Positions 26,321 to 37,335 of a stretch of DNA of 64,000 bases are shown here, in pieces. Position numbers and translations under genes: made by a program. The notes beneath the pieces were generated by a model. That model searched no databases. It saw only the letters and a program-made list of their open reading frames with translations, and was not told where the DNA came from. The stretch covers positions 62,001 to 126,000 of the forward strand of contig NZ_NQVN01000008.1 in the NCBI RefSeq assembly GCF_002770725.1, given 5' to 3'. Position 1 is the first letter of the stretch; each line of letters starts with the position of its first letter. Source of the stretch: Pleomorphomonas carboxyditropha. GTDB lineage: Bacteria > Pseudomonadota > Alphaproteobacteria > Rhizobiales > Pleomorphomonadaceae.

Positions 26321-27415
26321 CTAAATTCGCCGCTCGCTTTCGGCATCGAACAGCGACAGGCGGCCGAGATCGAAGCCGACCGTGACCGGCTCCCCGAGCT
26401 TCGGCAGCATGTCGGTGGGAAACTTGCCGACGATCTCCTCATCGCCCATGGCCAGCACCACGAGATTGTCCGAGCCGGTGTGCTCGATCAGCGTCGGCCT
26501 GAGCGTCAGCGTAAAGGCGCCGCCGCCCGACGTCAGGCCGGAGATCGGCTGGATGGATTCGGGGCGCAGACCGACCACCACGGCCTGTCCGTCGGCCGGC
26601 GCCGCCTCGAAGGCGTAGCCGTCGAGCGGCAGGATCGCGGCGCCGATGTCGGCCGAGATGTGGCCGCCATCGAGGCGGATATGCCCGCGCATGAAGTTCA
26701 TGCCGGGGTTGCCGAGGAAGTCGGCGACGAACAGGTTGACCGGCCGGTGGTAGACCTCCTCCGGCTTGCCGACCTGCTGGATCTCGCCGGCCTTCATCAC
26801 CACCATGCGGCTGGCGAGCGTCATCGCCTCTAATTGGTCGTGGGTGACGTAGATCGCCGTCGTACCCAGCGACTGGTGCAGCTTCTTGATCTCGGTGCGC
26901 ATGCTGGCGCGCAGCTTGGCGTCAAGGTTGGAAAGCGGCTCGTCGAACAGGAACACGCGTGGATCGCGCACCAGCGCCCGGCCGATGGCGACGCGCTGCC
27001 GCTGGCCGCCGGACAGTTGCGACGGCCGCCGGTCGAGCAGGTGGTCGATGTGCAGCATGCGCGCCTTTTCCTCGACCAAGGGCCGGATCTCCGCCATCGG
27101 CTTGCCGCGCATCCGGAGGCCGAACTCCATGTTACTGCGCACGCTCATGGTCGGATAGAGCGCGTAGGACTGGAACACCATGGCGATGTCGCGGTCCTTG
27201 GGCTCGACGTCGGTGACGTCGCGGCCGCCGATCTCGATCGCTCCCGAGGTCAGCCGGTCGAGGCCGGCGACGATATGCAACAGCGTCGACTTGCCGCAGC
27301 CCGACGGCCCCAACAGCACGATGAACTCGCCGCGCTCGATCTCGAGGTTGATGTCCTTCAGCACCCGCAGCGAGCCGTAGTTCTTGTTGCAGTTGGAAAT
27401 CCGGATGTCGATCAT
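26321..27415 (-). CDS. sugar ABC transporter ATPase (UgpC/MalK type)
   Basis: This 364-residue ATPase powers sugar uptake. Walker A is LLGPSGCGKST, the signature LSGGQRQR, Walker B VFLFDEPLSNLDAKLR and the switch His VTHDQLEAM. The C-terminal TOBE/regulatory domain from about residue 235 is of MalK type. It is the last gene of the beta-glucosidase/ABC operon, 5 bases after the inner permease gene. The ATPase type is shared by many CUT1 transporters, so it does not itself indicate the sugar. Confidence 0.94.
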   Translation of the reverse strand: MIDIRISNCNKNYGSLRVLKDINLEIERGEFIVLLGPSGCGKSTLLHIVAGLDRLTSGAIEIGGRDVTDVEPKDRDIAMVFQSYALYPTMSVRSNMEFGLRMRGKPMAEIRPLVEEKARMLHIDHLLDRRPSQLSGGQRQRVAIGRALVRDPRVFLFDEPLSNLDAKLRASMRTEIKKLHQSLGTTAIYVTHDQLEAMTLASRMVVMKAGEIQQVGKPEEVYHRPVNLFVADFLGNPGMNFMRGHIRLDGGHISADIGAAILPLDGYAFEAAPADGQAVVVGLRPESIQPISGLTSGGGAFTLTLRPTLIEHTGSDNLVVLAMGDEEIVGKFPTDMLPKLGEPVTVGFDLGRLSLFDAESERRI

Positions 27416-27420
27416 GACGG

Positions 27421-28335
27421 TCAACCCTTGACGGCCCCGGCGGTCATGCCGCGCAGGAAGTAGCGGCCCAGCAGGATGTAGAGGATGAGGGTGGGGGCGG
27501 CGGCGATCACCGTCGCCGCCATGTGGACGTTGTATTCCTTCACCCCGAAGTTGGAGTTGACCAGGTTGTTGAGGGCGACGGTCATCGGCGCGCTCGACGG
27601 ATTGGAGAAGGAAACGGCGAACAGGAAGTCGTTCCAGATGCCGGTGAACTGCAGGATCAGCGCCACCACGATCACCGACGGCGACAGCGGCAGCACGATG
27701 CGGAAGAAGATCCAGAAGAAGCCGGCGCCGTCGATGCGCGCCGCCTTGATCAGGTCGTTGGGCACCGACAGGAAGAAATTGCGGAACAGCATGGTGGTGA
27801 TGGGTATGCCGTAGATCACGTGGATCAGGATCAGCCCTTCCACCGAGCCGAACAGGCCGAGCGTGCGCAGCGTCACCGACACCGGCGCCAGCACCACCTG
27901 GAACGGCACGAAGTTGCCGGCAACCAGCGCGGCGAACACGAAGCGGGCGCCGGGGAACGGCCATTTGGCCAGCGCATAGCCGTTGATGGCGCCGATCATC
28001 ACCGAGATCAGCACGGCGGGGATGGCCATCACCATCGAGTTGCCGAAATAGCCCTTGAGGCCGCCGCAGGTGATGCCGATGCAGGCTTCGCCCCAGGCGG
28101 TGACCCACGGCTGGACCGTCGGCTCGTGCGGCAGCGCCATCAGCCCGCCCGCCTGTATCTCCGGCATCGTCTTGAACGACGTGCTGAGCAGGATGTAGAG
28201 CGGGCCGGCGAAGAAAAAGGCGACCACGGCGAGCAGCAGGTAGAGCACGGCCCGCTTCAGCATGGCCTTGCTCCGCCGGGGCGTCAGCCAGCCGGACCGC
28301 GCGGGCCGGGGCGTTGCGTCTGTCGGGGCCGGCAT
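27421..28335 (-). CDS. CUT1 sugar ABC transporter permease (second subunit)
   Basis: This 304-residue inner-membrane permease has six hydrophobic segments, starting with VLYLLLAVVAFFFAGPLYIL. The EAA loop contacting the ATPase lies in DLIKAARIDGAGFFWIFFRI and continues VLPLSPSVIVVALI. It starts at ATG 28335, which shares a base with the stop of the partner permease (TGATG overlap), so the two are translationally coupled. It corresponds to the MalG/GtsC-type subunit. Confidence 0.93.
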   Translation of the reverse strand: MPAPTDATPRPARSGWLTPRRSKAMLKRAVLYLLLAVVAFFFAGPLYILLSTSFKTMPEIQAGGLMALPHEPTVQPWVTAWGEACIGITCGGLKGYFGNSMVMAIPAVLISVMIGAINGYALAKWPFPGARFVFAALVAGNFVPFQVVLAPVSVTLRTLGLFGSVEGLILIHVIYGIPITTMLFRNFFLSVPNDLIKAARIDGAGFFWIFFRIVLPLSPSVIVVALILQFTGIWNDFLFAVSFSNPSSAPMTVALNNLVNSNFGVKEYNVHMAATVIAAAPTLILYILLGRYFLRGMTAGAVKG

Positions 28336-29207
28336 CAGGCGCGCTCCCTCGTTTCGACGTAGAGATAGGGGATCAGGATCGCCAGCACGGTGCCGAGCAT
28401 CACCACCGCCGAGGCGGCCGACAGGCCGAGGTTGGTGCGGCGGAAGGCCATGTCGAACATGAATACCGAGGGCAGGTCGGACGATACGCCGGGGCCGCCG
28501 TTGGTCAGCGCCACCACCAGGTCGAAGGCGCGGACGATCGACAGCGACAAGAGCACCACGACGGTGAGGAACACCGGCGCCAGCATCGGGATGACGATGA
28601 ACACGTAGACCCGCCAGGCGGGAATGCCGTCGACCGCCGCCGCCTTCCAGATGTCCTCGTCGATGCCGCGCAGGCCGGCGAGGAACAGCGCCATGACGAG
28701 GCCGCAGCCCTGCCAGAAGGCGGCGACCACCAGCGCCCAGATGACGGTATCCGGGTTGGTCAGCCAGTCGAGGCGGAAGCTCGTGAAACCGAGCTGATGC
28801 ACCATCACCTCGATACCGAGGGTGGGATTGAGCAGCCACTGCCAGATGATGCCGGTCACCACGAAGGACATGGCCATCGGATACATGACGATCGACCGGA
28901 AGAAGCTCTCGGCGCGGATGCGCTGGTCGATCAGGATGGCGATCAAAAGCCCGAGCAAGATGGTGATCAGCAGGAACAGCCCGCCGAACAGGAACATGTT
29001 GGTGAAGGCGACGTGCCAGCGCGGGGTATGGAACAGTCGCCAGTATTGCTCGAGGCCGACGAAATTGTCGAAGCGGGGGAAGGCCTTGCTGTTGGTGGTG
29101 GAGACGGCCGCCGTGTAGGCGATGAAGCCGTAGAGGAAGATCGCGATCAGCGCCAGCGACGGCGATAGGGCGACCTGCGACACGTGCCGCTGGAGGAATC
29201 TGCGCAT
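28335..29207 (-). CDS. CUT1 sugar ABC transporter permease (first subunit)
   Basis: This 290-residue inner-membrane permease of the MalF/GtsB type has membrane segments from SPSLALIAIFLYGFIAYTAA onward and an EAA loop at IDEDIWKAAAVDGIPAWRVY. The ATG at 29207 (MRRFLQRHVSQ) is preferred over one 20 codons upstream that would add a Pro/Ala-rich tail. It follows the binding-protein gene by 75 bases and overlaps the next permease by one base. Confidence 0.93.
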   Translation of the reverse strand: MRRFLQRHVSQVALSPSLALIAIFLYGFIAYTAAVSTTNSKAFPRFDNFVGLEQYWRLFHTPRWHVAFTNMFLFGGLFLLITILLGLLIAILIDQRIRAESFFRSIVMYPMAMSFVVTGIIWQWLLNPTLGIEVMVHQLGFTSFRLDWLTNPDTVIWALVVAAFWQGCGLVMALFLAGLRGIDEDIWKAAAVDGIPAWRVYVFIVIPMLAPVFLTVVVLLSLSIVRAFDLVVALTNGGPGVSSDLPSVFMFDMAFRRTNLGLSAASAVVMLGTVLAILIPYLYVETRERA

Positions 29208-29282
29208 GTTCGGAGCCTTCGCTTCACGGATCGGAGGTGCGCCGGCGGCGGGGAACCGCCGGCGCATCTTGTCGATATCCCG

Positions 29283-30509
29283 TCAGCGGGTCGCCGCCAC
29301 GGCGTCGGCCATCGCCGTCACGCCTTCCTGCGGCGTCATCTTGCTGTGCAGGAAGGTGGTCATCTGGTCGACCAGGGCGCCGATGCCGGTGGCGTCGGCG
29401 ACGTTGTCCGGAACGAGGAACAGGTGACCCTCGGCCGCTTCGCCCATGGCGATCTGGGCGCAGGCGTCGAAGCCGGTCTTGTCGACGTCGAGGCGTGGCG
29501 GGATCGAGCCCTTGCGCAGGCTGAATTCCTTCTGCACCACCGGGTCCATGATGGTCTTGGCCAGGGCGAGCTGGGCGTCGCGGGTCGCCTCGTCCTTGAC
29601 GGCGGTCATGGCGAAGGCGTCGGTGCCGAACACCAGCGTCTTGCCGCCGGCCGGGAACACCTCGCAGGCGATGTCCTTGCCCGGCACCTTGTTGGCGGCC
29701 ACGAACTCGCCCTTCAGCCAGTCGCCCATGATCATGTAGGCCGCCTTGCCGTTGATCAACAGGCCGCCGGTGATGTTCCAGTCGCGGCTCGGGCTGCCGG
29801 GGTCGACGAGGTCGCGCACCTTGGCGAAGATCTCGAAGGCCTTCAGCATCTCCGGGCTGCGCAGCGCGGCGTCGTCGAGGTCATAGGTGACCTTGGTCAG
29901 GAAATCGCGGCCGCCGACGTCGATCAGGATGCTTTCGAACACGAAGATTTCCTGCCAGGACTGGCCGCCGAGGGCCAGCGGGATATAGCCCTTGGCGCGG
30001 ATCTTGTCGGCGGAGGCGATCAGCTCTTCCCAGGTCTTCGGCATGGCAATGCCGACGTCGTCGAGCACCGCCTGGTTGCCCCACAACCAGTTGTGGCCGT
30101 GAATGTCGATCGGCGCGGTGACGTACTTGCCCTGGAACTTGGCATTGTCGGCGATCACCTTGGGCAACAGCTTGTCCCAGTCCTGGGCCACCGCGTCGAT
30201 GTCGTTGAGCTGGCCTTCCTCGGCCAGCGCCATCAGCGGCGCGCCGACCTGCCACTGCATGGAGGTCGGCGGGTCGCCGCCGAGGATGCGCGTGCGCGCC
30301 ACCATGCGCGCCGACTCGCCGCCGGCCACCGGATTGTCCTTCCAAGTGTTGCCGGTCTTCTCATAGGCGTCGACGAGGATCTTCAGCGCTGCCGCCTCGC
30401 CGCCGGTGGTCCACCAGTGAATGACCTCGGCGGTGCCGGCGAACACCGGCGTGGTCGTCGTCAGGGCAAGGGCCATCGCCGAGCCCAGCACTCCAAGCTT
30501 CGTGAACAT
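29283..30509 (-). CDS. periplasmic sugar-binding protein (GtsA-like)
   Basis: This 408-residue solute-binding protein has a signal peptide cleaved after residue 24 (TTTTPVFA-G). The N-terminal segment VIHWWTTGGEAAALKILVDA and GGDPPTSMQWQVG are characteristic of the glucose/mannose-binding GtsA/GltB group of CUT1 transporters, so glucose or a small glucoside is the likely ligand (inference). AAGGAGGAGAG before the ATG gives a strong ribosome-binding site, fitting the high level needed for a binding protein. The gene lies between the beta-glucosidase and the permeases. Confidence 0.9.
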   Translation of the reverse strand: MFTKLGVLGSAMALALTTTTPVFAGTAEVIHWWTTGGEAAALKILVDAYEKTGNTWKDNPVAGGESARMVARTRILGGDPPTSMQWQVGAPLMALAEEGQLNDIDAVAQDWDKLLPKVIADNAKFQGKYVTAPIDIHGHNWLWGNQAVLDDVGIAMPKTWEELIASADKIRAKGYIPLALGGQSWQEIFVFESILIDVGGRDFLTKVTYDLDDAALRSPEMLKAFEIFAKVRDLVDPGSPSRDWNITGGLLINGKAAYMIMGDWLKGEFVAANKVPGKDIACEVFPAGGKTLVFGTDAFAMTAVKDEATRDAQLALAKTIMDPVVQKEFSLRKGSIPPRLDVDKTGFDACAQIAMGEAAEGHLFLVPDNVADATGIGALVDQMTTFLHSKMTPQEGVTAMADAVAATR

Positions 30510-30605: not shown

Positions 30606-31943
30606 TCATCCCTTCAAAAAGTCGGCGAACCAGCGGCCGCTCTGCTTCAGGGTCCGCTTCTGCGTTGCGAAATCGACGTGAACCAGGCCGAACCGCTTGG
30701 AATAGCCTTCGGCCCATTCGAAGTTGTCGAGCAGGCTCCAGACGAAATAGCCGGCGAGATCGACGCCGCCGTCCATCGCCACGCGCAGCGCGTCGATATG
30801 GCGGTGGATGTAGACGGCGCGCCGCCCGTCGTGAATGGCGCCATCCGCGCCGATCTCGTCGGGGTAGGTGGCGCCGTTCTCGGTGATGGCGATCGGTCCC
30901 GGCCGGTAGTCGCGCTGGACGCGCAAAAGCAGCTCGGTCAGGCCTTCGGGATAGACCTCCCAGCCGAAGCCGGTGACGTCGGAGGTCTCGGCCTCGACGA
31001 CGCGCGACCGCATCGGCCCGCCCTCGGGATCGTCGGCGACGATCTCGCGGAAATAATAGTTGATGCCGAGGAAGTCTGTCCGGCCGGCGATGGTCGCGAG
31101 GTCGCCGTCGCTGACCGTCGGCGCGGCGGCGCCGAGCGCGCGTAGGACATCCTCCGGATAGCCGCGGCCGTGCAGCGGATCGAGGAACCAGCGGTTCCTC
31201 AGGCCGTCGTGGCGGATGGCGGCGAGCCGGTCGGCCTCGGAGCCGGACGCCGTGTGGATCGGATGCAGGCTGAGCGCGATGCCGCAGCGGGCGTCGGCGA
31301 CATTGGCCCTGAGCACCGGCAAGGCCAGCCCATGCGACAGCAGAACGTGGTGGGTGGCCTGCATCGCCGCCGCGAGGTCGCGCTTGCCGGGCGCGAACTC
31401 GCCCTCATAATAGCCCTTGACGGTGCTGCACCACGGTTCGTTGTGGGTGATCCAGCGCTTGACGCGATCGCCGAGCCGGCGGGACACCACGTCGGCGAAA
31501 CCGGCGAAGGCGAGGGCGGTGTCCCGGCGCGGCCAGCCGCCGGCATCCTCGAGCGGTTGCGGCAGGTCCCAGTGATAGAGCGTCAGCCAGGGCTCGATGC
31601 CGCGCTCCAGCAGCCCGTCGACCAGGCGATCGTAGAAGGCGAGGCCGGCCTTGTTCACCGCGCCGGTCCCCGTCGGCAGGATGCGCGGCCAGGACACGGA
31701 AAAGCGGTAGGCGCCGACGCCGAGCGCCTTTACGAGATCAAGGTCTTCTTCCCAGTGATGATAGTGATCACAAGCCACGGCAGGCGTATCGCCATTGCGG
31801 ATATGGCCGGGTTCGGTGGCAAACGTGTCCCACACCGATGGACGACGGCCATCGGCATCCGTTCCACCTTCGATCTGCAGAGCGGAGGTGGAGACGCCCC
31901 ACCGGAAATCCTCGGGAAACTGGGCGCGCGTGGAACGAGGCAT
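30606..31943 (-). CDS. bglA: GH1 beta-glucosidase
   Basis: This cytosolic retaining beta-glycosidase of family GH1 probably releases glucose from cellobiose or other beta-glucosides brought in by the adjacent transporter. The 445-residue barrel starts FPEDFRWGVSTSALQIEGG. The acid/base Glu169 is in WITHNEPW, the nucleophile Glu355 in AITENGATY, and the sugar-binding segment is LLDNFEWAEGYSKRFGL. It has no signal peptide. It is the first gene of the operon with the ABC transporter and has an operator-overlapped promoter facing the ROK repressor. Confidence 0.95.
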   Translation of the reverse strand: MPRSTRAQFPEDFRWGVSTSALQIEGGTDADGRRPSVWDTFATEPGHIRNGDTPAVACDHYHHWEEDLDLVKALGVGAYRFSVSWPRILPTGTGAVNKAGLAFYDRLVDGLLERGIEPWLTLYHWDLPQPLEDAGGWPRRDTALAFAGFADVVSRRLGDRVKRWITHNEPWCSTVKGYYEGEFAPGKRDLAAAMQATHHVLLSHGLALPVLRANVADARCGIALSLHPIHTASGSEADRLAAIRHDGLRNRWFLDPLHGRGYPEDVLRALGAAAPTVSDGDLATIAGRTDFLGINYYFREIVADDPEGGPMRSRVVEAETSDVTGFGWEVYPEGLTELLLRVQRDYRPGPIAITENGATYPDEIGADGAIHDGRRAVYIHRHIDALRVAMDGGVDLAGYFVWSLLDNFEWAEGYSKRFGLVHVDFATQKRTLKQSGRWFADFLKG

Positions 31944-31973
31944 GCCGATGACCGCCGTTGCTGACCGGATGTT

Positions 31974-32009
31974 GCTTCAATTAATTAAATGAAACATAAG
32001 GCGAGTCAA
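31974..32009 (-). promoter_or_regulatory. bglA promoter with ROK operator (site A)
   Basis: On the minus strand the -35 box TTGACT (plus 32004-32009) is 17 bases from a -10 box AATTAA (plus 31981-31986). The -10 sits inside a near-palindrome, TTTCATTTAATTAATTGAA on the minus strand, within plus 31974-31995, and 31 bases before the bglA ATG. The same motif, in the same place relative to -10, occurs at the ROK promoter. Confidence 0.7.
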
Positions 32010-32016
32010 GTGACAT

Positions 32017-32035
32017 AATTTCGGCTTCCGAAATT
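32017..32035. promoter_or_regulatory. second palindrome in the bglA-ROK intergenic region
   Basis: AATTTCGG (32017-32024) and CCGAAATT (32028-32035) are a perfect 8-base inverted repeat around CTT. It lies upstream of the bglA -35 box and differs from the ROK operator, so it could be the site of another regulator or a small hairpin. Confidence 0.4.
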
Positions 32036-32169
32036 TATTGGACAATCGGGATCCTATACGGAAAAGATCATCGGGAAACGGCGCGATTCCCCTAATTTTT
32101 GTTGGTAGCTGTCTTGCCGAGCAAGGCACCAAAAGGCGAGGTGGATGCCGCAAGGAAACAACCGGGCTG

Positions 32170-32204
32170 TTGAAATCAGCCGTCTTTCATTTCTATAAGT
32201 GAAA
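32170..32204 (+). promoter_or_regulatory. ROK gene promoter with operator (site B)
   Basis: TTGAAA (32170-32175) and CTATAA (32193-32198) are 17 bases apart, 40 bases before the ROK start. The -10 lies inside TTTCATTTCTATAAGTGAAA (32185-32204), which matches site A at TTTCATTT, TAA and TGAA. Repressor bound here would block polymerase, giving autoregulation. Confidence 0.7.
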
Positions 32205-32244
32205 CGAGCGGAGTTCCAATGCTCCATGTAACGGAAGCGTCTTC

Positions 32245-33405
32245 ATGCCCTCGCTGAAGGGAAACCAGAGCACTTCGCGCACTCTCAATCGGTTGCTGCT
32301 GCTCAATCATTTGCGCCGCCACGGCCCGACGGCGCGCTCGGACATCGCCGCGGCCACCGGGCTCAGCCCGGCGGCGATTTCCTACGTGTCGTCCGAGCTC
32401 CTGGAGCAGCAGGTGATCGCCGAGCTCGACGCCGTGGCTGATGGCGGCCGGCGCCGGATGACGCGACTCGATCTCAATTACGCCGGTCACGTGGCGCTGG
32501 GCGTCAAGCTGATGGAGCGCAGCCTCCGGGCGACGCTCGTCGATCTCGGCACCAACGTCATCGACACCCTGACGGCCGACGTCGACGCACGTTCGCCGGC
32601 AGCGGTGGCGCGGGCGACCGCCGATGCGCTCGCCGACCTTCTCGAACGGTCCGGAGAACACAGACAGCGGCTGATCGGCATCGGCCTTGCCATGCCCGGC
32701 CAGCACGACGCCGAGCGCGGCGTCTGCTTGCGCTGCGACCGGTTCGGCTGGAAGGACGTGCCGATCGCCGCGCTGATCGCCGACCTGGCCGGCGTTCCCG
32801 TCTGGGTCGACAACGACGTCAACGCCTTCGCGCTTGCCGAACACCTGTTCGGCGCCGGCCGGCAGGCGTCGTCGCTGGCGGTATTCTCCTTCGGCCGCGG
32901 CATCGGCGCGGCGATGATCGTCGACGGCCAGCTTCTGCGCGGCCGCTACGGCGGGGCGGGCGAGATCGGTCATCTCACCGTGGTGGAGGATGGCCCGCGC
33001 TGTGAATGCGGCCGGCTCGGCTGCCTCGAGGCGGTCACCTCGCTGCCGGCCATCCTCAACGCCTACGGCATCGTCCGGCCATCCGATCGTAGCATCGATC
33101 CCGCCGCCCTGGCGACGCTGGCGGGGGAGGGCGACCCGGTGGCGCGCGAGATCCTCGATACCGCCGGCCGCCGGCTCGGCGCGGCGGCGGCGACCTTCGC
33201 CAGCCTGTTCGATCCGGAGACCATGGTGATCGGCGGCGAGGGCGTGCTGTTCGGCCCGGCGCTGCTCGATCCGCTGGTGGCGACGCTCAAGGAAAAGAAC
33301 TTCCAGCGCAACACCGAGGTGTTCGTCGAGTTCTGGAACGACGACGCCTGGGCGCGCGGCGCGGCGGCGCTCGCCATCGACAGCTTCTTTTCGCTGCCGT
33401 CGTGA
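32245..33405 (+). CDS. ROK family transcriptional repressor
   Basis: This 386-residue regulator has an N-terminal winged helix (LLLLNHLRRHGPTARSDIAA, then ATGLSPAAISYVSSELLEQQ) and a ROK sugar-kinase-like domain with GIGLAMPGQHD, VDNDVNAFALAEHLFG and the zinc site CECGRLGCLEA. ROK repressors (NagC, Mlc, XylR type) release DNA when a sugar or sugar phosphate binds. It faces bglA and the ABC operon, and matching operators occur at both promoters, so it most likely represses that operon and itself. GGAAG seven bases before the ATG supports the start. Confidence 0.92.
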   Translation: MPSLKGNQSTSRTLNRLLLLNHLRRHGPTARSDIAAATGLSPAAISYVSSELLEQQVIAELDAVADGGRRRMTRLDLNYAGHVALGVKLMERSLRATLVDLGTNVIDTLTADVDARSPAAVARATADALADLLERSGEHRQRLIGIGLAMPGQHDAERGVCLRCDRFGWKDVPIAALIADLAGVPVWVDNDVNAFALAEHLFGAGRQASSLAVFSFGRGIGAAMIVDGQLLRGRYGGAGEIGHLTVVEDGPRCECGRLGCLEAVTSLPAILNAYGIVRPSDRSIDPAALATLAGEGDPVAREILDTAGRRLGAAAATFASLFDPETMVIGGEGVLFGPALLDPLVATLKEKNFQRNTEVFVEFWNDDAWARGAAALAIDSFFSLPS

Positions 33406-33449: not shown

Positions 33450-33489
33450 AATTTCGGAGGCTTCGAATGGGCTCGGCAGGAGCGTGGTC

Positions 33490-33756
33490 ATGCAAATATC
33501 GGTCACGGAAGCCAAAGGTCAGCTGACCGAGTTGATGCGGCGTGCGGAACGGGGAGATGAAATCATCCTGACCCGCCATGGCCATGCTGCCGTACGGCTC
33601 GTTCCGGTCAAACCGGTGGCCGACGCGAAATCCCGCAAGCTGCTGCTCGATGCGGTTCGGGCTTCCGCCGCCGAAAAGGTGGCGGGCGGCCCGAGCGCCG
33701 CGCGCAGCCAGGATTTTCTCTACGACGAGAATGGCCTTCCCGATGATCGCCGTTGA
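33490..33756 (+). CDS. Phd/YefM-family antitoxin
   Basis: This 88-residue antitoxin starts MQISVTEAKGQLTELMRRAE and continues RGDEIILTRHGHAAVRLVPV, the standard Phd/YefM DNA-binding fold. The C-terminal tail with FLYDENGLPDD is typical of Phd proteins that pair with PIN toxins. ATG 33490, with AGGAG seven bases before it, is preferred over GTG 33484. It overlaps the toxin gene by 14 bases. Confidence 0.87.
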   Translation: MQISVTEAKGQLTELMRRAERGDEIILTRHGHAAVRLVPVKPVADAKSRKLLLDAVRASAAEKVAGGPSAARSQDFLYDENGLPDDRR

Positions 33757-34126
33757 TACGTCGGCGCTGATGGCAATCCTTTTGGGCGAGCCGGAGGCCG
33801 ATGCATGCGCCGCGGCGCTCGAAGTGGAGGATCGTCTGCTGATTTCCGCCGGTACGGTGGCCGAAGCGCTGATCGTCGGCGAGCGGCGCAATACCGGCGA
33901 GGAAATGGAGCGGCTGATCGATGGGCTCGGCTTCGAGATCGTCAGCGTGACGCCGGCTTCGGCCCGCCGCATTGCCGAATTCTACCGGAAATGGGGCAAG
34001 GGCGTTCACCCGGCCGCCCTGAATTTCGGCGATTGCTTCTCCTACGAGGTGGCGAACGAATACGGATGTCCGCTGCTTTATGTCGGCGATGATTTCGCGC
34101 GGACCGATATAAAGCCTGTCCTGTAG
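33743..34126 (+). CDS. vapC: VapC-type PIN-domain ribonuclease toxin
   Basis: This 127-residue PIN domain begins MIAVDTSALMAILLGEPEAD. The acidic metal-binding residues are visible: Asp in VDTSA, Glu in GTVAEALIVGE, and Asp in LNFGDCFSYEVA with Asp in YVGDDFARTDI. VapC toxins cleave tRNA or rRNA. ATG 33731 would add four residues. It is coupled to the antitoxin by overlap. Pairing a Phd-type antitoxin with VapC is common. Confidence 0.9.
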   Translation: MIAVDTSALMAILLGEPEADACAAALEVEDRLLISAGTVAEALIVGERRNTGEEMERLIDGLGFEIVSVTPASARRIAEFYRKWGKGVHPAALNFGDCFSYEVANEYGCPLLYVGDDFARTDIKPVL

Positions 34127-34230: not shown

Positions 34231-34306
34231 TGGCTCCGCGAGTAGGACTCGAACCTACGACCCGGTGATTAACAGTCACCTGCTCTACCAACTGAGCTAT
34301 CGCGGA
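34231..34306 (-). tRNA. tRNA-Asn (GTT)
   Basis: Read on the minus strand this 76-base gene folds into a cloverleaf: acceptor TCCGCGA pairs with TCGCGGA, followed by encoded CCA. The D arm is GCTCAGTTGGTAGAGC, the anticodon loop CTGTTAA gives GTT (Asn), and the T arm contains GGTTCGAGTCC. Confidence 0.97.
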
Positions 34307-35546: not shown

Positions 35547-37223
<1,677 letters not shown>

Positions 37224-37261: not shown

Positions 37262-37335
37262 GGCCACGTGGCGGAGTGGTTACGCAGCGGATTGCAAATC
37301 CGTGTACGGGGGTTCGATTCCCTCCGTGGCCTCCA
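37262..37335 (+). tRNA. tRNA-Cys (GCA)
   Basis: This 74-base cloverleaf has acceptor GGCCACG paired with CGTGGCC, discriminator T and encoded CCA. The anticodon loop within GGATTGCAAATCC gives GCA (Cys), and the T arm contains GGTTCGATTCC. A short CCCGC/GCGGG hairpin follows about 30 bases downstream. Confidence 0.97.

Follow-up and report, generated by a model that had tools for sequence, protein, structure and literature searches.

How is a beta-glucosidase and sugar-uptake operon of Pleomorphomonas carboxyditropha kept off and switched on, and is the switch held by the ROK-family regulator that is encoded back to back with it? The question arises in a stretch of 64,000 nucleotides (the window, i.e., the whole stretch of DNA that was analysed), where an intergenic region of 301 bp lies between bglA on the minus strand and the ROK gene on the plus strand. 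The genes concerned, with positions counted in the window, are the following.

26321-27400, minus strand: ATPase of the sugar ABC transporter, of the MalK/UgpC type (452.7 bits against PRK11650 of NCBIfam, cut-off 432)
27421-28305, minus strand: ABC sugar permease 2 (Pfam BPD_transp_1)
28335-29267, minus strand: ABC sugar permease 1 (Pfam BPD_transp_1)
29283-30509, minus strand: ABC solute-binding protein, glucose-binding type (best PDB entries 5dvf, 5xpj, 8hqq and 4r2b)
30606-31943, minus strand: bglA, which opens the divergent operon and encodes a GH1 beta-glucosidase (608.9 bits against TIGR03356 of NCBIfam, cut-off 478.5)
32245-33405, plus strand: ROK-family transcriptional regulator of 386 aa (Pfam ROK PF00480, 1.1e-51, 176.5 bits)

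That the regulator adopts the ROK fold is clear from its sequence. CxCGxxGCxE is the zinc motif of ROK proteins and ExGH their sugar motif, and the protein keeps ND at residues 190-191, GEIGH at 239 and CECGRLGCLE at 253. The ATP/phosphate motif of the ROK kinases, DxGGT, is absent, the protein reading GVKLMERSLRATLVD at residues 86-100. For the helix-turn-helix, the Pfam HTH_24 score of 20.8 bits lies below the cut-off of 21.9, and from residue 5 onward the protein aligns to the N-terminal region of Lmo0178 (5f7p, 5f7r), which heads the closest solved chains ahead of 1z05 and Mlc (3bp8, 1z6r). Membership in the NagC or Mlc families was considered and rejected, as the NCBIfam scores were 185.4 against a cut-off of 650 (NagC) and 167.8 against 530 (Mlc). 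NagC and Mlc carry a linker of the GRP type, where the Pleomorphomonas protein reads GGRRRM, and their operator half-site differs from that of the candidate operators in Pleomorphomonas. Eight close matches were found in named records, six from Pleomorphomonas and two from Proteobacteria MAGs. Outside the genus, no close orthologue was seen in three samples, of 150 genomes (12 candidates scored in each), 385 genomes (5 in each) and 397 genomes (4 in each), so that an orthologue may be missed; the next relatives are at most 43% identical.

The intergenic region contains the following elements, of which the operators are candidates and the promoter boxes predictions.

31975-31994, minus strand: operator A, covering the -10 region of bglA (minus strand, TTTCATTTAATTAATTGAAG)
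31980-31985, minus strand: predicted bglA -10 box, ATTAAT (4/6), 18-bp spacing
32004-32009, minus strand: predicted bglA -35 box, TTGACT (6/6 columns invariant)
32017-32035, no strand assigned: imperfect inverted repeat AATTTCGGcttCCGAAATT, directly upstream of the bglA -35 box
32170-32175, plus strand: predicted rok -35 box, TTGAAA (5/6 columns invariant)
32185-32204, plus strand: operator B, covering the -10 region of rok (TTTCATTTCTATAAGTGAAA)
32194-32199, plus strand: predicted rok -10 box, TATAAG (5/6), 18-bp spacing

A scan of the window for TTTCATTTnnnTAAnTGAA gave exact matches at 31976-31994 (minus strand) and 32185-32203 (plus strand). With up to three mismatches allowed the same two places alone were found, each with an opposite-strand match at two mismatches, at a tolerance for which 0.04 matches are expected in the window by chance (100 shuffles). 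Extended along their dyads, the sites become the 20-mers 31975-31994 (minus strand) and 32185-32204 (plus strand), near-palindromes of the form TTTCAyTT-N4-AArTGAAA from which operator A departs by one end base. As the pattern had been derived from the sites themselves, we added a pattern-free test that ranks pairs of 20-mers from the 301-bp intergenic region by a joint score of mutual similarity and palindromy and takes the best. The pair it chose is the one to which the initial annotation had pointed, and its joint score of 31 was reached in none of 1000 dinucleotide shuffles (mean 23.3, maximum 28). The twin-site observation is thereby confirmed, and the earlier claim of matching candidate operators on both divergent promoters stands. 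Both targets show the layout of a ROK-type operator, a palindrome with a T-rich left and an A-rich right half; according to the accessible text of PMC4856308, this arrangement is that of ROK sites generally, including those of NagC/Mlc.

The same annotation had proposed a comparison of related strains, for which we built an alignment of the intergenic region from the 11 genomes, among 14 of Pleomorphomonas, that carry a ROK orthologue (87-94% identical in the 10 other genomes). Both sites are kept in all 11. Counting columns on the window's own bases, with a gap taken as a change, we found 19/20 invariant columns in operator A and 15/20 in operator B; together this makes 34/40, against 27/227 in the remaining intergenic region, a remainder that excludes the -35 boxes and the inverted repeat (Fisher p 2e-20, relatedness ignored). 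TTTCATTTnnnTAAnTGAA is exact at site A in 11/11 genomes and at site B in 8/11, the other three (G004, G005 and G013) having TTCG in place of TTCA. The distance from the -35 box to the operator is likewise constant, in 11/11 genomes at site A and 10/11 at site B, with one additional base in G012. Since these genomes belong to one genus and their ROK proteins are so similar, the conservation is partly shared descent. As for the three genomes outside the alignment, G006 and G007 yielded zero ROK matches (E 1e-50) and zero operator sites at up to one mismatch, and orthologues of bglA and of the binding protein are absent from both (relatives of 48% and 37% only in G006, none at the cut-offs used in G007). 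In G008, which has neither a ROK match nor a site at up to one mismatch, the contig ends inside the bglA orthologue and the intergenic region lies off the contig.

Could the two sites be mere conserved promoter sequence, resembling each other because -10 regions are rich in A+T? They do contain the -10 boxes, and their mutual similarity alone, 15/20, was equalled in 167 of the 1000 shuffles and is not significant, so that the case rests on palindromy and conservation. On precisely these two counts such a reading becomes extremely improbable: the sites are 20-bp near-palindromes with a joint score that no shuffle attained, and their invariant columns, above all at site A, reach far past a -10 hexamer.

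Regarding promoter geometry, the initial annotation had placed the operators over the -10 boxes, equally far from TTGA -35 boxes at a spacing of 17 bases. The equal placement holds, the TTGA -35 box being equidistant from the operator at both promoters, and a spacing of 18 bp appears the better choice, since the 17-bp alternatives, CTATAA (rok) and AATTAA (bglA), fit more poorly. A strict sigma-70 scan of 31900-32300 reported zero promoters; its -10 rule demands an A as the second base and a T as the sixth, and it passes over both predicted promoters because ATTAAT breaks the former demand and TATAAG the latter. As judged from these letters, both promoters are likely rather than proven, and the bglA -10 box is weak. 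The common register of the sites also bears on the sign of control. ROK regulators can activate, as the accessible text of PMC9599254 records, and the protein might accordingly be an activator, or a repressor at one promoter and an activator at the other. We consider this very unlikely, as both sites lie over the predicted -10 boxes in the same register, where a bound protein generally blocks polymerase. In the same paper, as far as its accessible text goes, 10 of the 11 operators of NagR, a bifidobacterial ROK protein, overlap the -10 or -35 box, which is there taken to suggest repression.

How far would such control extend? A whole-genome motif scan, also suggested in the initial annotation, found only two exact TTTCATTTnnnTAAnTGAA matches in the 5.88-Mb genome, both in the bglA-ROK intergenic region, i.e., the two operators. 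At up to two mismatches the genome has 11 matches against 0 for the reversed control pattern; four of these are the two operators read on both strands, two are one palindrome on C80, and five are single places at the two-mismatch level (C3, C9, C11, C16 and C44). Across the 14 Pleomorphomonas genomes, a single match at up to one mismatch falls outside the bglA-ROK region (G010:C184), and a pattern derived from operator B gave no further place at zero or one mismatch and scattered places, G006 included, at two. A wider regulon was rejected, as no place beyond the bglA-ROK region recurs at up to one mismatch in these 14 genomes and no recurring third target exists there at this level. A weak third target at the two-mismatch level, where the inspection of neighbouring ORFs covered L003 and L010, may nonetheless be conceived. 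From the near-absence of other close matches in Pleomorphomonas, the system looks like a local switch controlling two promoters. Outside the genus, 27 of 136 genomes match at up to one mismatch, and the reversed control also matches in some.

Downstream of the ROK gene, the window holds several further genes. A Phd/YefM-type antitoxin gene and then a PIN-domain toxin-like gene (33484-34126) follow it directly, and a tRNA-Asn gene (34231-34306, minus strand) separates this toxin-antitoxin-like pair from a second GH1 beta-glucosidase gene (35547-37184, minus strand), near which lies a tRNA-Cys gene (37262-37335). The second GH1 gene has no operator site at up to three mismatches, and within Pleomorphomonas a match to it near the ROK gene (E 1e-100) occurs in G000 and G012 only.

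The bglA side carries one more conserved element, the inverted repeat AATTTCGGcttCCGAAATT, whose centre lies about 19 bp from that of the bglA -35 box. Within the stretch 32016-32037, 10 of 22 columns are invariant (11 genomes), and the repeat is one base short mid-element in G004, G005 and G013; the missing middle base in three genomes argues against a strict dimer site at 32017-32035. The repeat could be the site of a second regulator or an UP-like element. At up to three mismatches its pattern had 83 matches in the 14 Pleomorphomonas genomes, of which 13 are the bglA locus, against 52 for the reversed control, numbers from which no clear regulon emerges; all seven matches with zero or one mismatch are the bglA locus, from which the pattern had been written. 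Near copies of ATAATTTGAGGGTCGAAATTTA occur elsewhere in 7 of the 14 Pleomorphomonas genomes (at L084, L097, L099, L101 and others), and the ORFs listed around three of them (L097, L084 and L099) offer no explanation.

The presence of this second conserved inverted repeat lends some substance to another view of the locus, namely that a regulator encoded elsewhere binds both 20-bp sites and that the ROK protein has a different target, for instance the repeat at 32017-32035. This view seems unlikely to us. In the genome, exact copies of the 20-bp sites occur at this locus alone, and all ROK-bearing Pleomorphomonas genomes keep the sites; the repeat, as a site for the ROK protein, would serve the bglA side only, with 10 invariant columns in 22 and a base missing in three genomes.

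Further evidence on the pairing of regulator and site comes from a ROK paralogue in the same genome (L032, G000:C2:137390-138535; 42% identical). Directly before its start stands a candidate operator, AGTTAATTTaagAAATAAACT, unlike the operators of the window and kept in six aligned Pleomorphomonas genomes, with the last base altered in G010 and G013. The paralogue, its copies in the genus and four relatives from other families share a pre-start palindrome of another type, e.g., AGTTAATTTaagAAATAAACT and AATTAATTTacaAAATTAAG; before the 42%-identical relatives it takes the form TTAATTT-N3-AAATWAA, as opposed to TTTCAyTT-N4-AArTGAAA at the window ROK gene. The patterns TTTCA-N10-TGAAA and TTCAnTT-N4-AAnTGAA are absent from all eight loci searched (L185, L186, L187, L023, L188, L189, L190 and L032), and the latter pattern, as a positive control, recovers both window operators. 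The start-region readings cover the non-genus loci other than L188 and L189, and a more distant relative (L190, 34% identical) has no such pre-start palindrome. The proteins differ in parallel: the recognition helix reads SPAAISYV in the window ROK and SPAAVTFV or SPAAVTFVI in the paralogue and relatives, the linker reads GGRRRM as against GRRP, and the glutamate of GEIGH is replaced by K or R in the three relatives aligned. Such differences of candidate operator and pocket between the groups are what one would predict were each palindrome bound by the neighbouring ROK protein. It is tempting, albeit as a tentative idea that is more doubtful than probable, to suppose that operator, recognition helix and linker changed together in a genus-specific ROK protein, insulating the operators of the two paralogues from each other, and that a second regulator of bglA acts at 32017-32035.

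What sugar, then, would the switch sense? The binding protein of the operon has 5dvf/5dvi as its best solved relative, with 159 of 380 aligned positions identical to 5dvf, and 2b3b, called a glucose-binding protein, ranks lower. 5DVI is the glucose-binding protein of P. putida CSV86 (PMC7232493, accessible text), and the available part of PMC7927077 lists twelve glucose-contact residues of GltB from that strain. Eight of the twelve are kept in the Pleomorphomonas protein (numbering transferred with a paper-to-chain offset of 2, set by a WW pair); the changed ones are E, Q, G and D for G68, K92, N301 and H379, the last of them in a gapped stretch. It is possible that the operon imports glucose, a glucose disaccharide, or both. 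With a binding protein of the glucose type and 4/12 contacts changed, the inducer may be glucose or a beta-glucoside.

Taken together, we favour a sugar-responsive repressor that acts locally through two operators, by which the ROK protein would repress its own gene and the bglA-ABC operon, and we put the probability of this reading at roughly 0.8. Autorepression along with repression of the beta-glucosidase/ABC operon is also what the initial annotation had proposed, and the proposal gains support from sites that are conserved in 11/11 genomes, lie over both predicted -10 regions and have no recurring third place. As to binding by the ROK protein, its oligomeric state, repression, operon structure and inducer, we infer the following course of events. 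An oligomer of the ROK protein would bind both 20-bp near-palindromes over the -10 regions and so exclude RNA polymerase from the bglA-ABC and rok promoters. A glucose-type sugar, be it cellobiose, another beta-glucoside or glucose released by BglA, would fill the pocket of the ROK protein and cause its release. Both promoters would then become active and raise uptake, hydrolysis and repressor jointly, and the repressor would cap its own level.

The locus is a clear but ordinary case of a familiar gene switch, and it leaves knowledge of the switch mechanism unchanged. What it offers for a ROK protein of the order Rhizobiales is a candidate operator that is concrete and conserved and a proposed regulon of two promoters, together with a pair of ROK paralogues with distinct candidate operators in one genome, which is usable for learning how ROK proteins choose their DNA. 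A literature search, for which most subscription papers were beyond reach, found no paper joining Pleomorphomonas with the ROK family and none joining Pleomorphomonas, beta-glucosidase and cellobiose.

Among known systems, the glucose transporter GltB/GtsA of Pseudomonas has a related binding protein, which in Pleomorphomonas is linked to a GH1 enzyme. The closest solved chain to the regulator, Listeria Lmo0178 (5f7p, 5f7q, 5f7r), aligns over residues 5-385 (E 2.2e-50) and has K-N where the Pleomorphomonas protein has N190-D191. NagC and Mlc of E. coli, global regulators where the Pleomorphomonas ROK protein looks local, also belong to the ROK family; their T-rich/A-rich operator layout is similar (PMC4856308, accessible text). 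A parallel in gene content is BglR of Thermotoga, a ROK protein that controls a beta-glucosidase/ABC operon with cellobiose and glucose as effectors; in T. maritima this operon is bglREFGKL-TM0026-bglB-lamA (PMC3750489, accessible text). There the regulator gene lies inside the operon, a laminarinase is included and the phylum is a distant one, whereas the ROK gene of Pleomorphomonas is divergent. The context in Pleomorphomonas is of the BglR type, a ROK gene beside a beta-glucosidase/ABC operon with shared candidate operators that would place both under its control. BglR may thus be regarded as a functional analogue, likened on gene content and control logic.
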